64,000 nucleotides of DNA. Origin: Pelobacter seleniigenes DSM 18267. Lineage in GTDB: Bacteria > Desulfobacterota > Desulfuromonadia > Desulfuromonadales > Geopsychrobacteraceae. The translations under genes and the position numbers were made by a program. The stretch is from NCBI RefSeq assembly GCF_000711225.1, contig NZ_JOMG01000002.1, forward strand, positions 2,058,501 to 2,122,500, given 5' to 3'. Under the pieces are notes generated by a model. That model did no database searches, was not told the origin of the DNA, and was given only the letters and a program-made list of their open reading frames with translations. Below, one piece after another: positions 35,257-40,304 of this stretch (positions within the stretch are counted from its first letter, which is position 1; each line of letters starts with the position of its first letter).

Positions 35257-36227
35257 ATGCTTTACCCTGGCAGCCGTCGGAAAAGCCGCTGATGCTGGCC
35301 CCGATGCAGGGGCTGACCAATGAGGCGTTGCGCCAGTGTTTCATAGAGCGCTATTGCCCGGATATCCTTTTTACCGAGTTTGTCCGCGTCAACAGCCAGT
35401 CGCGTAAACGCATCGCCAAGGCCGACCTGGCTGAAATCAAGGCGCATCGGGAGGCCACGCCGCTGGTTGTCCAGTTGATCGGCAACGCTCCGGCGGCCCT
35501 GGCCGATGCGGCCCAGCGGGTCCAGACGGTGGGCTGTGGTTATCTTAACCTGAATCTGGGGTGTCCCTACGGCCGCATGACGACCGGCGCAACCGGCGGT
35601 GAACTGCTGAAAAATCCCCTGGCCCTGGCCGGTTTGCTGGCTGAGCTGAGAGCCGTGATCACGGGCAGCTTTTCGGTCAAATGCCGGGCCGGTTATGATG
35701 ATCCGCGGCAGCTATTCGATTTGCTGCCGGTCTTTGCCGATAGTGGTGTCGATTTTCTGATCCTGCATCCGCGCACTGTCGTGCAGAAGTATGCCGGGGT
35801 CGCAGACCATGAGCTGACTGCCGAAGCGGTTCAGCGCACCGCCTTGCCGGTGATCGCCAACGGCGATATCTGCACAGCCGGACAAGCCCGGCTGCTACTG
35901 CAACAGGCCGGTGTTGCCGGGGTGATGCTCGGCCGCGGAGCCCTCGCCGATCCTTTGCTGTTCAAACGGATTCGCGGGCAGGAACCCGACTGTGTCGATG
36001 AAGGGCAGCGGCGCCTGGAACTGTATGCCTTTATTGCCGACCTGCTGCCGCGCTATCTGATCAAGTTCTGCGGGGAGCGACAGGCGTTGATGAAGCTCAA
36101 GGATGTGCTGAATTTTATCCCCGACCCGCTTCTCCAGCGCGACTTGGGGAAGTTGAAACGGGCGGTCACTGTCGAGCGTTTTAATGCATTGCTCAGCGAG
36201 CGCTTCCTGGCCCCGGCGGGCATTTGA
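35253..36227 (+). CDS. dus: tRNA-dihydrouridine synthase
   Basis: The 324-residue FMN enzyme has LMLAPMQGLTNEALRQ, the catalytic cysteine in NLNLGCPYGRMTTGATGG, FLILHPRTVVQKY and VIANGDI, resembling the DusC subgroup. It reduces uridines in tRNA D-loops. It starts at ATG 35253, overlapping the DUF3820 stop. Confidence 0.92.
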   Translation: MNALPWQPSEKPLMLAPMQGLTNEALRQCFIERYCPDILFTEFVRVNSQSRKRIAKADLAEIKAHREATPLVVQLIGNAPAALADAAQRVQTVGCGYLNLNLGCPYGRMTTGATGGELLKNPLALAGLLAELRAVITGSFSVKCRAGYDDPRQLFDLLPVFADSGVDFLILHPRTVVQKYAGVADHELTAEAVQRTALPVIANGDICTAGQARLLLQQAGVAGVMLGRGALADPLLFKRIRGQEPDCVDEGQRRLELYAFIADLLPRYLIKFCGERQALMKLKDVLNFIPDPLLQRDLGKLKRAVTVERFNALLSERFLAPAGI

Positions 36228-36283
36228 GGGGCGTTGCTGACTGTTTTTGAGGCGGTTGGGAAAACCTTTGCAATCGCTGCTAC

Positions 36284-36313
36284 TTATCAACATTTATCCA
36301 CAGGTTACACACA
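36284..36313 (+). promoter_or_regulatory. DnaA-type box cluster upstream of nrdD
   Basis: TTATCAACA (36284-36292), TTATCCACA (36294-36302, a perfect DnaA box) and TTACACACA (36305-36313) repeat at 10-11 base steps, on one face of the helix. DnaA control of ribonucleotide reductase genes is known in other bacteria. Confidence 0.55.
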
Positions 36314-36319
36314 GAAGAT

Positions 36320-36366
36320 TGACAATATGTAGTAGCTCCCCGGAAAAAAATAGCTAGATGTAGTGG
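36320..36366 (+). promoter_or_regulatory. Pair of NrdR-like boxes
   Basis: CAATATGTAG (36323-36332) and CTAGATGTAG (36354-36363) resemble the core of the NrdR box and start exactly 31 bases apart, the usual tandem spacing. They lie just upstream of a promoter-like pair. Confidence 0.6.
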
Positions 36367-36369
36367 TTT

Positions 36370-36398
36370 TTGGGTTGGGTTGCCCACTGACTTATGCT
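36370..36398 (+). promoter_or_regulatory. Candidate nrdD promoter
   Basis: TTGGGT (36370-36375), 17 bases, then TATGCT (36393-36398). A start near 36405 would give a leader of about 285 bases that includes a complete MITE-like repeat before the nrdD ATG. Confidence 0.5.
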
Positions 36399-36440
36399 AG
36401 TGTCTGCATGACGTATTTTGGTTCTGTAACGTCCTTTCTA

Positions 36441-36624
36441 CTTAGTTTTCATCCGGAAGCGGCCCTTTTCCGCTGTGGCGGTGTCAATCTGCGGGTTTTC
36501 TTGTGCGGCGTAAAGGACTACGCCTTCGCGCAACCCCTTGATGTCCTTGCCACAACGAAAAATTGCCCGTTTCCAGTCTGAAAACTTAGCCGTTGCCCTT
36601 CGGAGTTTTCGGATGGCAACTAGT
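36441..36624 (+). repeat. MITE-like repeat, copy B (forward), in the nrdD leader
   Basis: The left end is ATCCGGAAGC and the right end CGGATGGCAACTAG. It contains the internal stem GGCGTA/TACGCC flanked by TTGTGC...GCGCAA. It lies between the nrdD promoter region and the gene. Confidence 0.82.
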
Positions 36625-36688
36625 TAATTGAAATATCTCTGTTGCAATCAACTTGAACAACCCGCTGCTACGACGGGGAGGGGTTTAA

Positions 36689-38677
36689 ATGCTAGAATTT
36701 ATCCGTAAACGTGATGGTCGACTGGTTCCCTTTGAAGAAGACAAAATCGCCCGGGCGATTATCAAGGCGGTTGAGGCCGTTGGTGGAACGGATTTCACCA
36801 AAGCGGCCGATATCACCCGCCAGGTGAGCGGGATCCTGTCCGTGCTTTACAAGGGCGGCCAGGCACCGACCGTCGAAAATGTCCAGGATCTGGTCGAAAA
36901 AATCCTCATTGAAAACGGCCATGCCCAGACCGCCAAGGCCTTTATCCTCTACCGTAAGCAGCATGAAACCCTGCGCCGGACCCGGGAGTTCATGCAGACC
37001 TCCATCGATGCCATCGATTCCTACCTGGTCCGGGAAGACTGGCGGGTCAACGAAAATGCCAATATGGGCTACTCGTTGCAGGGGCTGAATAATCATATCG
37101 CGGCCAATATTACCAGTAACTACTGGCTGAATAAGATCTATCCGGATGATATTGCCGACGCTCATCGGCGCGGGGATTATCACATCCACGATCTCGGCAT
37201 GCTCTCGGTGTATTGCTGCGGCTGGGATCTCAAGGACCTGCTCCTGAAAGGCTTTACCGGTGCTTACGGCAAGGTGCAGAGTGCGCCGCCGAAGCATTTC
37301 CGCACCGCTCTCGGCCAGGCCGTCAATTTTTTCTATACCCTGCAGGGGGAAGCGGCCGGAGCCCAGGCCTTTGCCAATTTCGATACCCTGCTGGCGCCGT
37401 TCATCGCTTATGACCGGTTGACCTATCAAGAGGTCAAGCAGTCGCTGCAGGAATTTGTCTTCAATATGAACGTGCCGACCCGGGTCGGTTTCCAGACCCC
37501 CTTTACCAATATCACCATGGATATGATGGTGCCGGCCAACATGGCCAAAGAGGCCGTGGTTATCGGCGGGCAGCTGATGGAACGTAGTTACGGTGAGTTC
37601 CAGGAGGAGATGGACATCTTCAACCGGGCCTTCTGCGAAGTGATGATGCAGGGGGATTCCTCCGGCCGGATCTTTTCCTTCCCCATTCCGACCTACAACA
37701 TCACCCGTGACCTCGACTGGGAGAGCGACCGTTTGCAGCCGGTCTGGGAGATGACCGCCAAATACGGAATCCCTTATTTCAGCAATTTCGTCAATTCCGA
37801 CATGGACCCGGAGGATGCGCGCTCCATGTGCTGTCGGCTGCGTTTGGATAACCGTGAGCTGCGGCGCCGGGGCGGGGGGCTGTTCGGCTCCAATCCGATG
37901 ACCGGGTCGATCGGGGTGGTCACTATCAATTTACCGCGCGCGGCCTACTTGGCTCACAACAAGACCGAGTTCTTTGAGCGGATCAGTCGGCTGATGAAGC
38001 TCGCCTATCAGTCCCTGGAAATCAAACGCAAGCAGCTGGAGCGCTTTACCGAGGACGGCCTGTACCCGTTCAGCAAGTTCTATCTCGCTTCAATCCGCGA
38101 GCGCAGTGGCAACTACTGGGATAATCATTTTTCGACCATCGGTCTGATCGGGATGCATGAGGCCTGCCTCAACCTGATTGACAGCGGCATCGAGAGTGAC
38201 GCAGGCAAGGCACTGGCGCAGGACACCCTCGAATTTATGCGCAAGCAGCTGGAAGTGTTTCAGGACGAGACCGGCCACCTCTACAACCTGGAGGCAACTC
38301 CGGCTGAAGGGACCAGCTTCCGCTTGGCCAACAGTGACCGGAAACGCTATGCGGATATCATTTGCGCGGGGCAGGACGAGCCCTACTATACCAACTCGAC
38401 CCAGCTGCCGGTAGGGATCACCGAGGACATTTTCGAAGCCCTGACCCACCAGGACACGATGCAAACCCGCTATACCGGCGGAACCGTTTTTCACGGCTTC
38501 CTGGGGGAACGACTGGAAGACTGGCGTAGCGCCCGGCTGCTGGTCAAGCGCATCGCCGAAAATTTCCATTTACCATATTTTACCCTCAGCCCGACGTTTA
38601 CGATCTGCCCGGTGCACGGCTATATCTCCGGCGAGCATTTCTCCTGTCCTCATCATCAGGAAGGGAAGGCCGCCTGA
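36689..38677 (+). CDS. nrdD: Anaerobic (class III) ribonucleotide reductase, catalytic part lacking the glycyl-radical tail
   Basis: The 662-residue protein reduces ribonucleotides to deoxyribonucleotides without oxygen. It has an ATP-cone (residues 1-95, MLEFIRKRDGRLVPFEEDKI) and the NrdD barrel, with GYSLQGLNNHIAANI, DYHIHDLGMLSVYCCGWDL and NLPRAAYLA. It ends at CPVHGYISGEHFSCPHHQEG, the first half of the zinc site, and stops. The remaining zinc-site cysteine and the RVCG glycyl-radical motif expected on the same chain are in the next small gene. GGGGAGGGG precedes ATG 36689. Confidence 0.93.
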   Translation: MLEFIRKRDGRLVPFEEDKIARAIIKAVEAVGGTDFTKAADITRQVSGILSVLYKGGQAPTVENVQDLVEKILIENGHAQTAKAFILYRKQHETLRRTREFMQTSIDAIDSYLVREDWRVNENANMGYSLQGLNNHIAANITSNYWLNKIYPDDIADAHRRGDYHIHDLGMLSVYCCGWDLKDLLLKGFTGAYGKVQSAPPKHFRTALGQAVNFFYTLQGEAAGAQAFANFDTLLAPFIAYDRLTYQEVKQSLQEFVFNMNVPTRVGFQTPFTNITMDMMVPANMAKEAVVIGGQLMERSYGEFQEEMDIFNRAFCEVMMQGDSSGRIFSFPIPTYNITRDLDWESDRLQPVWEMTAKYGIPYFSNFVNSDMDPEDARSMCCRLRLDNRELRRRGGGLFGSNPMTGSIGVVTINLPRAAYLAHNKTEFFERISRLMKLAYQSLEIKRKQLERFTEDGLYPFSKFYLASIRERSGNYWDNHFSTIGLIGMHEACLNLIDSGIESDAGKALAQDTLEFMRKQLEVFQDETGHLYNLEATPAEGTSFRLANSDRKRYADIICAGQDEPYYTNSTQLPVGITEDIFEALTHQDTMQTRYTGGTVFHGFLGERLEDWRSARLLVKRIAENFHLPYFTLSPTFTICPVHGYISGEHFSCPHHQEGKAA

Positions 38678-38715
38678 CCACAATACACCACTTTATTTGC
38701 TTAGGAGAGAGTTTG

Positions 38716-38862
38716 ATGGGAACCAAATGTGATGCTAAAACTGAAGTTTATTCAAGGGTTTGTGGATTTTTCCGACCGGTCCAGCAATGGAACAAGGGGA
38801 AGAAGGAAGAATTTAAAGAACGCTCTGAATATGTTGTAACCACCAAGGAGCAACAGCGCTGA
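38716..38862 (+). CDS. Separate glycyl-radical domain of NrdD (48 aa)
   Basis: This short gene encodes MGTKCDAKTEVYSRVCGFFR and continues PVQQWNKGKKEEFKER, which is the C-terminal glycyl-radical segment of class III RNR; the radical glycine is residue 17. It has its own ribosome site (AGGAGA, 38703-38708) and a different reading frame from nrdD, 38 bases downstream. It must join the large subunit to give an active enzyme. A frameshift pseudogene is less likely because the start, ribosome site and ends are intact. Its stop overlaps the nrdG start. Confidence 0.85.
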   Translation: MGTKCDAKTEVYSRVCGFFRPVQQWNKGKKEEFKERSEYVVTTKEQQR

Positions 38863-39563
38863 AAACGATCCGAATCAAAGGTTTTCAGGGAACCAGCCTG
38901 CTCGATTTCCCGGGGCGGGTCGCGTCCCTGGTCTTTACCGGGAGCTGCAACCTGACCTGTCCTTTTTGCCATAACGGCGGTCTGGTTCTGAATCCGGATG
39001 ACTATCCGGATATTCCCGTGGAAGAGTTGCTGGCAGACCTGAAAAAACGTGGGGGTTTTGTCGATGGAGTTGTGGTGTCGGGCGGAGAGCCGACCATCGA
39101 TGCTGGTCTGCCGGCATTTTTAGCCCAGCTCAAGGCTTTGGACCTGGCCGTCAAAGTCGACAGTAACGGTCTTGCTCCCAATGTGATCGCGGCGTTGTTG
39201 GAACAGGGGTTGGTCGACTCCTTGGCCATTGATATCAAAACCTCACCAGCCCGTTACGCAGAACTCCATAGCGGGCCGGTGGACAGTGTCGCTCTGGCCG
39301 AGACCGTGGCTCTGCTGGCAACCGCTCCGGTCAGCGTCGAGTATCGGACCACCTGCATTCCGCAGCTGGTTGGCGCTGCCGAGATCGCTGCCATCGGGGA
39401 GTTGCTGCGCGGTGCGCCGTTGTGGGTCCTGCAGCAATATGTTCCGGCTCATGCCATGAGCGCGGACTGGCAGAGGCTGGATCCTTACCCTGCGGCGCAA
39501 CTGGAAGCCCTGGCCGAACAGGCCCGGAGCTATGTCGCTCAGGTCAAGTTGCGCGGAATCTGA
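38859..39563 (+). CDS. nrdG: Anaerobic RNR activating enzyme (radical SAM), CTG start
   Basis: NrdG generates the glycyl radical on NrdD. The product, about 234 residues, opens KTIRIKGFQGTSLLDFPGR, followed by the radical-SAM motif CNLTCPFCHNGGLV and VVVSGGEPTIDAGL. No ATG, GTG or TTG exists between the upstream in-frame stop (38826) and this motif. The only plausible start is CTG 38859, 8 bases after AAGGAG (38845-38850) and overlapping the previous stop as CTGA. Starting at GTG 39018 would delete the iron-sulfur site. Confidence 0.85.
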   Translation: MKTIRIKGFQGTSLLDFPGRVASLVFTGSCNLTCPFCHNGGLVLNPDDYPDIPVEELLADLKKRGGFVDGVVVSGGEPTIDAGLPAFLAQLKALDLAVKVDSNGLAPNVIAALLEQGLVDSLAIDIKTSPARYAELHSGPVDSVALAETVALLATAPVSVEYRTTCIPQLVGAAEIAAIGELLRGAPLWVLQQYVPAHAMSADWQRLDPYPAAQLEALAEQARSYVAQVKLRGI

Positions 39564-39582
39564 GTACTGGTGATGCTAAACA

Positions 39583-39621
39583 ATCAGCCACGGGCGCTTT
39601 GCGCCGTGGCTGATTTTATTT
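39583..39621 (+). terminator. Terminator of the nrdD-nrdG operon
   Basis: AATCAGCCACGG (39583-39594) pairs perfectly with CCGTGGCTGATT (39605-39616) and is followed by T-rich sequence. Confidence 0.9.
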
Positions 39622-39667
39622 ACAGACCCTCTCCGCGTTGTTTCTAGCGGCGGTATTTTAAAGCTGG

Positions 39668-39922
39668 TTACTCAATGACCTTGTGGCAGAACAGGCAGCG
39701 GAATTTGGCCGGATGGTCTGCCGGCAGCGGGACATCGTTCGGATTGTGACAATCTTCGCAAAATTTTTCTGCGGCTTTTTTTCCGTCGTTTTTCACGATA
39801 TCGTAAAAACGTGAATGAATTTCATCCTTTGGAACTCGCTTGGTGCTCTCCTCCGGAGCCATCCAGAGAACGCCGATGATGATAGCGGCTCCCACCAGCA
39901 AGATGATATCCCGTTTTTTCAT
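39668..39922 (-). CDS. Small membrane-anchored diheme cytochrome c
   Basis: The 84-residue protein has an N-terminal hydrophobic helix (about residues 5-21, uncleaved or signal anchor) and two haem-binding motifs, CEDCH and CLFCH, in the last 35 residues. AGGAG precedes ATG 39922. It is probably a periplasm-facing electron carrier in the inner membrane. It lies downstream of a small membrane protein gene on the same strand. Confidence 0.85.
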   Translation of the reverse strand: MKKRDIILLVGAAIIIGVLWMAPEESTKRVPKDEIHSRFYDIVKNDGKKAAEKFCEDCHNPNDVPLPADHPAKFRCLFCHKVIE

Positions 39923-39971
39923 GGCTTTCTCCTGATTCTAAATGATGATGCCCCAAGGGGCTGCTATGCTG

Positions 39972-40304
39972 TTAATCGGTTTTGATAAAAAGAATGTAGA
40001 TGAACAGGGCGACGACCACGGCACCGCCGCCAACGATGACATAGAGCCCGCCGCTTTCGATTCCTGAGACCCCGGTTCCTTTGCTGACCGTCCAGGACAA
40101 GGCCAGGGCAAAACCGCCCAGGCCGACCAGAAACGCGGAGATGGTGCGCCAGCCCATGAAGTAGGTAAACAAAATGGCAACGGCGAAGCCGCCCAAAAAC
40201 CAGGGATCCGTACTCAGGTTGCCGACGTTCCAGTCTTGCAACTGCTGCATCACCTGGTCGGTGCGGAACAGGTCGAGGTACTCTTTGACGGTGGCCCAGC
40301 TCAT
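39972..40304 (-). CDS. Small membrane protein beside the diheme cytochrome
   Basis: The protein has 110 residues. A short soluble N-terminus (MSWATVKEYLDLFRTDQVMQ) is followed by three hydrophobic helices (about 36-52, 56-70 and 85-106). ATG 40304 follows GAGGAG; the longer open frame has no start signal. It is co-directional with the cytochrome and may be its membrane partner. I do not recognise the family. Confidence 0.7.
   Translation of the reverse strand: MSWATVKEYLDLFRTDQVMQQLQDWNVGNLSTDPWFLGGFAVAILFTYFMGWRTISAFLVGLGGFALALSWTVSKGTGVSGIESGGLYVIVGGGAVVVALFIYILFIKTD

Follow-up and report, generated by a model that had tools for sequence, protein, structure and literature searches.

Which codon starts nrdG, the gene for the radical-SAM activase of the anaerobic ribonucleotide reductase, in Pelobacter seleniigenes? 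In the window (the whole stretch of 64,000 nucleotides that was analysed), the nrdG frame is closed upstream by the TGA at 38826-38828 and translates after this stop as I-C-C-N-H-Q-G-A-T-A-L(CTG 38859)-K-T-I-R-I-K-G-F-Q-G-T-S-L-L-D-F-P-G-R. The original prediction placed the start at this CTG, on the grounds that the frame has no ATG, GTG or TTG between the stop at 38826 and the cysteine motif, and that an 8-nt spacer separates AAGGAG from CTG 38859, whose last two bases belong to the preceding stop (CTGA). Both observations can be read directly from the window. We consider it likely that nrdG does start here, coupled to a short upstream gene for a glycyl-radical peptide, and that the operon encodes a class III ribonucleotide reductase in two pieces. 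The features are collected in Table 1.

Table 1. Features of the nrdDG locus in the window, and peptide frames found elsewhere in the phylum (contig coordinates)
Feature	Position	Strand	Basis
nrdD main subunit, 662 aa; ATP-cone and class III barrel, no radical-glycine segment	36689..38677	+	Pfam NRDD, ATP-cone
48-aa glycyl-radical peptide, detached NrdD C-terminus; its TGA overlaps the nrdG start	38716..38862	+	Pfam NRDD
Cys5 of the peptide, equivalent of the fourth zinc cysteine of fused NrdD (C-x3-T-E-V-Y-S-R)	38728..38730	+	spacing; putative role
Gly17, predicted radical glycine (RVCGFF)	38764..38766	+	alignment with 4coi residue 621
Shine-Dalgarno AAGGAG, 8 nt 5′ of CTG	38845..38850	+	sequence; GGAG kept in relatives
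nrdG, radical-SAM activase of anaerobic ribonucleotide reductase, 234 aa	38859..39563	+	NCBIfam NrdG2, Pfam Radical_SAM
CTG, probable start codon of nrdG	38859..38861	+	CTGA overlap with TGA 38860-38862; relatives
Inverted repeat CTGAAAAC / GTTTTCAG; its predicted pairing would mask the start codon in this genome	38859..38888	+	folding; not conserved in the group
ATC where the ancestral ATG start stood	38868..38870	+	ATG in genus g8 (L017, L023) and most outgroups
CNLTCPFC codons, iron-sulfur cluster motif CX3CX2C	38946..38969	+	translation; residues 30-37
Glycyl-radical peptide ORFs in families f43 and f78	L135 3946-4170; L136 3953-4141; L138 3841-4053; L139 3480-3656		

With the CTG start, the product scores 162.5 bits against the NCBIfam model NrdG2 (TIGR02495), above the curated cut-off of 131.15 bits, and includes CNLTCPFC as its CX3CX2C motif. 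The earliest ATG, GTG or TTG of the frame in the ORF list is GTG 39018, which opens a 181-aa ORF without CX3CX2C; this form scores 110.7 bits, and only the CTG form passes. Gene callers had been expected to begin at this GTG and lose the cluster-binding site. The codon list and the loss of the motif bear this out, while the behaviour of the callers is deduced from the codons only. The overlap of CTG with a stop codon is by itself weak evidence, because such overlaps are common by chance in the window: pairs of frames open for at least 100 codons form 15 CTGA overlaps, compared with 6 ATGA and 3 TTGA. It is the conservation of the start among relatives, not the overlap, that exceeds chance.

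At the threshold used, nrdG was matched in 36 of the 44 genomes of the family that we searched. The start region was readable in 36 genomes, namely 35 of those matched (the partial G058 was left out) and G010. CTGA with its CTG in the nrdG frame occurs at the same place in 33 of these 36, and the alignment of the start in close relatives, proposed earlier as a check, therefore favours the CTG. The three exceptions (two in genus g8 and one in g2) instead carry ATG at codon 4, the codon aligned with 38868, and the same is true of most members of the order's other families. The claim that the CTG fits the family N-terminus exactly was accordingly wrong, since outside the CTGA group the start is the ATG aligned with ATC 38868, three residues later. 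The isolates Desulfuromusa kysingii DSM 7343 (L031), Pelovirga terrestris (L004) and Malonomonas rubra DSM 5091 (L016) all belong to the CTGA group. In another Desulfuromusa contig (L086) the match is broken, yet CTGA is found at the same spacing, and L037, from which one codon is deleted, retains both CTGA and the 8-nt spacing. The CTGA of L120 lies outside the nrdG frame. The window rests on a single assembly, and the CTG might in principle be a sequencing or assembly error for ATG. This explanation, which would have undone the prediction, is practically excluded, given that CTGA recurs in many independent assemblies, the three isolates included.

Among the 23 rows of the main clade, six (L001, L012, L013, L031, L033 and L037) lack any ATG, GTG or TTG from the upstream stop as far as the cysteine motif. 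Seven have an in-frame ATG, GTG or TTG at least 72 nt upstream, within the peptide gene and with no intervening stop; in the others the frame is closed by a stop. The Shine-Dalgarno core at -12 to -9 reads GGAG in 23 of the 32 CTGA rows and is weak in the other nine (CGAG in 4, AGAG in 3 and AGAA in 2). On the tree, the CTGA rows are united by a single change, although the branch that separates genus g8 has a support of only 51. The rows are consistent with one origin of CTGA, and with this branch support two origins are possible.

The last codon of the peptide gene contributes the C of CTGA. This codon encodes R (12), S (5), N (5), D (5), H (2), G (2) or A (1) in the 32 CTGA rows, and its third base is always C; these rows were picked for having CTGA, the unselected figure being the 33 of 36 given above. 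On a tree of NrdD and NrdG, the codon has undergone at least 12 residue changes, with 10 base changes at its second position, 5 at its first and none at its third, which is the reverse of normal codon evolution. In the 105 codon columns that show four or more residue types, between 2 and 16 third-base changes are required; the last peptide codon was counted separately, as the alignment behind these columns probably spread it over several of them. In a 29-row set, 94 columns are this variable, and the last peptide codon is the only one of them whose third base never differs. A product of codon-usage frequencies (2e-13) was set aside, since it ignores relatedness and takes in two false rows (L018 and L082). 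An A, G or T in place of the C would give ATG, GTG or TTG, all of which are better starts. The pattern therefore points to selection that holds the nrdG start as CTG itself, and a start other than ATG, GTG or TTG appears to have been kept across species.

The C could also be kept for a different reason, such as the context of the stop codon or an RNA hairpin, with NrdG made by another route. The CTG of the window does pair within an 8-bp hairpin when the RNA is folded. However, the probability of pairing with this partner reaches 0.5 in only 8 of the 32 rows, and in seven rows the partner is CAA, with which the C is unable to pair and is still kept. Moreover, alifold detected no shared RNA structure at the nrdG start of the CTGA rows. 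A hairpin that is not shared does not explain an invariant C, and we regard this alternative as improbable. Should the hairpin form in the window, it would be unwound by ribosomes completing the peptide, in keeping with coupling of the two genes.

We also looked for other elements at the locus. An Rfam scan of 36100-40000 returned nothing above the gathering score, cobalamin riboswitch included; such a riboswitch was predicted before nrdDG of Desulfuromonas, according to the accessible part of PMC545781. A scan for promoters and terminators gave counts similar to those in shuffled sequences. Directly after nrdG, at 39582-39621, we noticed by eye a strong GC-rich inverted repeat with a T-rich stretch behind it. 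It was not listed by the terminator scan, and is the probable end of the operon.

Codon 4, where the ancestral ATG stood, has decayed. As printed, the 32 CTGA rows have ATT (8), ATC (7), ATA (5), TTT (2), CTT (1), CTG (1), TTG (6) or GTG (1) there, and the one remaining row is shifted; this is L037, one codon shorter, which has ATT once aligned. TTG and GTG are found in seven of the eight rows of genus g5 and in none outside it, and may be a real start in those rows. The eighth g5 row, G050 (L116), has CTG both at the start site and at codon 4. The decay from ATG implies that codon 4 is no longer required as a start in most CTGA rows. The gene infC starts with AUU or AUC, and nrdG could similarly initiate at a near-cognate ATC, ATT or ATA at this ancestral site. 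ATH is present there in 20 of the 32 rows as printed (21 with L037 aligned), in agreement with the N-terminus of NrdG in the outgroups. Nevertheless, four rows have TTT, CTT or CTG at this codon, the Shine-Dalgarno spacing would be 17 nt, and the invariant C of CTGA would be left unexplained. We therefore think a start at codon 4 unlikely, if marginally the least so of the alternatives to CTG.

Alternatively, programmed -1 frameshifting where the peptide gene ends could yield a fusion of peptide and NrdG. The two frames overlap, nrdG is in the -1 frame relative to the peptide, and in a few rows the end is A-rich, for example AGAAAAACTGA. By contrast, the rows have no slippery heptamer in common, and their last codons (CGC, TCC, CAC, AAC, AGC, GAC, GGC and GCC) vary freely in the bases that would be read again, which makes a frameshift very improbable. 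Initiation at CTG 38859 is our preferred reading: it is the one candidate start that all relatives in the CTGA group have, it appears to be protected by selection, and it is mostly well spaced from a Shine-Dalgarno sequence.

The gene that overlaps nrdG, whose identity the original prediction did not give, is a detached piece of NrdD. Of the 562 positions of Pfam NRDD, the body matches 1-526, and the 48-aa ORF matches 526-562 at 40.9 bits. The body therefore has the NRDD domain and the ATP-cone expected of a class III NrdD, while the radical glycine is not on the same chain. A genome search detected no NRDD match beyond the body and the small ORF. The alignment of the peptide to residues 610-643 of Thermotoga maritima NrdD is weak and places Gly17 on residue 621 (4coi), which we take to be the radical glycine. 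Of 78 rows, three of which duplicate the contig of another row, 75 have the peptide in an ORF of its own and two have it fused (L084 and L085, from Desulfobulbaceae and Desulfurivibrio); in one it was not found. The split of NrdD, with the radical segment in an ORF that has its own start, is thus conserved through Desulfuromonadales. The row that lacks the peptide (L078) has none between nrdD and nrdG or elsewhere in its 6.4-kb locus, and the end of its nrdD is like that of a split gene.

The body terminates at half a zinc motif, CPVHGYISGEHFSCPHHQEGKAA. Its C640, H643 and C653 are invariant in an alignment of 17 rows. A cysteine equivalent to Cys5 is present in 76 of 77 peptides (the two fused ones included), with the same spacing to TEVYSR as in the fused L084 and L085; it is lacking in L118, a partly divergent contig. 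With three putative zinc ligands on the body and a fourth candidate on the peptide, the break falls inside the zinc motif, which suggests that the two chains share one zinc site. An AlphaFold model of the body, based on the 17-row alignment, was not usable (mean pLDDT 58.4, pTM 0.44).

Two places in the genome match Pfam PF02867 of other ribonucleotide reductases, and nrdDG is therefore probably not its sole ribonucleotide reductase supply. The second of these genes, at G000:C4:669821-671221, has a match in two pieces from which model positions 347-377 are absent. Another copy lies at G000:C2:2341921.

Split NrdD proteins also occur elsewhere in the phylum. A typed query of 53 residues had matches in 168 of 296 genomes, most of the matches listed being within long open frames. 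We read eight places with small open frames, and in at least four of them (L135, L136, L138 and L139) the body ends at the zinc motif and a peptide ORF of 58-74 codons comes next. The split NrdD of families f43 and f78 is similar but distinct, with a body end like CPVHGYLPGKHEICPYPH. Two further contigs encode proteins of about 118-128 aa (L141 2885-3271 and L142 3038-3394, minus strand) that have Cys-pair motifs and the glycyl-radical motif CEVYSR(V/I)VGY(L/M)RPV. They are possible spare parts for NrdD. On L138 (3998-7501, minus strand) and L139 (3681-7001, minus strand), NrdD frames of more than 1000 codons reach the end of the fetched stretch and perhaps carry an inserted element such as an intein.

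How might this operon work? Its products would be made in the order NrdD body, radical peptide, activase. Ribosomes finishing the 48-aa peptide at TGA 38860 would already sit on the start of nrdG, where the AAGGAG within the end of the peptide gene would hold or recruit the 30S subunit. The radical peptide would dock on the 662-aa NrdD body and complete the two-piece enzyme. The activase is required in catalytic amounts only. With fMet initiating weakly at CUG, its dose would be small and tied to that of its substrate, the peptide, and this low dose may be the benefit of the weak start. In E. coli, CUG supports <1% (about 0.86%) of the initiation or output of AUG, as given in the accessible text of PMC11497404. 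So weak a start predicts a very low yield of NrdG unless coupling helps. A separate radical segment may also lower the cost of repair after oxygen damage, in which the chain is cut at the glycine, much as YfiD does for pyruvate formate-lyase. The portion of PMC8683613 available to us calls such spare parts possible for other glycyl radical enzymes, with validation only for pyruvate formate-lyase.

Several known systems share some of these properties. Like other activases of the NrdG2 type (TIGR02495), the protein is a radical-SAM enzyme with CX3CX2C, encoded beside nrdD. What differs is the CTG start kept in one family of Desulfuromonadales, while in most other members of the order the start reads as ATG. 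Conserved non-AUG starts include those of infC (AUU) and pcnB (AUU), where, as here, a poor start is kept by selection though a better one is a single base away. At nrdG, however, the codon would be CUG, it overlaps a stop and it belongs to a gene for a radical-SAM activase, for which no autoregulation is known.

YfiD/GrcA and T4 Y06I, as described in the accessible part of PMC8683613, are likewise small separate glycyl-radical proteins that complete a larger body. YfiD rescues oxygen-cleaved pyruvate formate-lyase that was made whole, according to the same text, whereas here the body is encoded without the domain and the peptide would be a regular part of the enzyme; a full-length enzyme with its own domain was not found alongside, the genome having no other NRDD match. 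The split class II enzyme NrdJa/NrdJb also distributes a catalytic body and a zinc-containing C-terminal part over two chains, but, unlike NrdD, class II has no glycyl radical (PMC9669993, accessible part). In phages, nrdD may also occupy more than one reading frame. The available portion of PMC3653736 links these breaks mostly to introns, inteins and homing endonucleases, the cause in phiAS4 being unknown. By contrast, the break described here is clean, lies inside the zinc motif and is conserved in dozens of genomes.

A literature search, with most subscription papers outside its scope, found no CTG start in nrdG and no separately encoded radical domain of a bacterial NrdD. The accessible parts of PMC4390871, PMC3019208, PMC11528403 and PMC12288474 make no mention of a detached NrdD domain. 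As coverage of the literature was partial, this absence of reports is weak evidence of novelty.

CUG makes up about 0.024% of bacterial initiation codons, according to the accessible text of PMC11497404, and a CUG that selection has maintained in many species suggests that poor initiation is sometimes the desired state. Stop-start coupling on CUG could be studied in its natural setting at the CTGA of nrdG. It also matters for annotation, as gene finders restricted to ATG, GTG and TTG would truncate NrdG and drop the cluster motif. The split NrdD in turn suggests a glycyl-radical enzyme with a detachable radical part, which bears on the idea of spare parts printed in PMC8683613 (accessible portion). 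These observations can be joined in a tentative reading, to which we give somewhat less than an even chance, of a replaceable radical cartridge of about 48 residues, a zinc site between chains and an activase locked to CUG. The two-piece enzyme would occur in Desulfuromonadales and in no fewer than two further families of the phylum. In Desulfuromonadales, zinc bound by Cys, His and Cys of the body and Cys5 of the peptide would hold the cartridge, and in one family every new cartridge would come with activase in a small, constant proportion. If this reading is true, oxygen damage would cost the cell only the cartridge.
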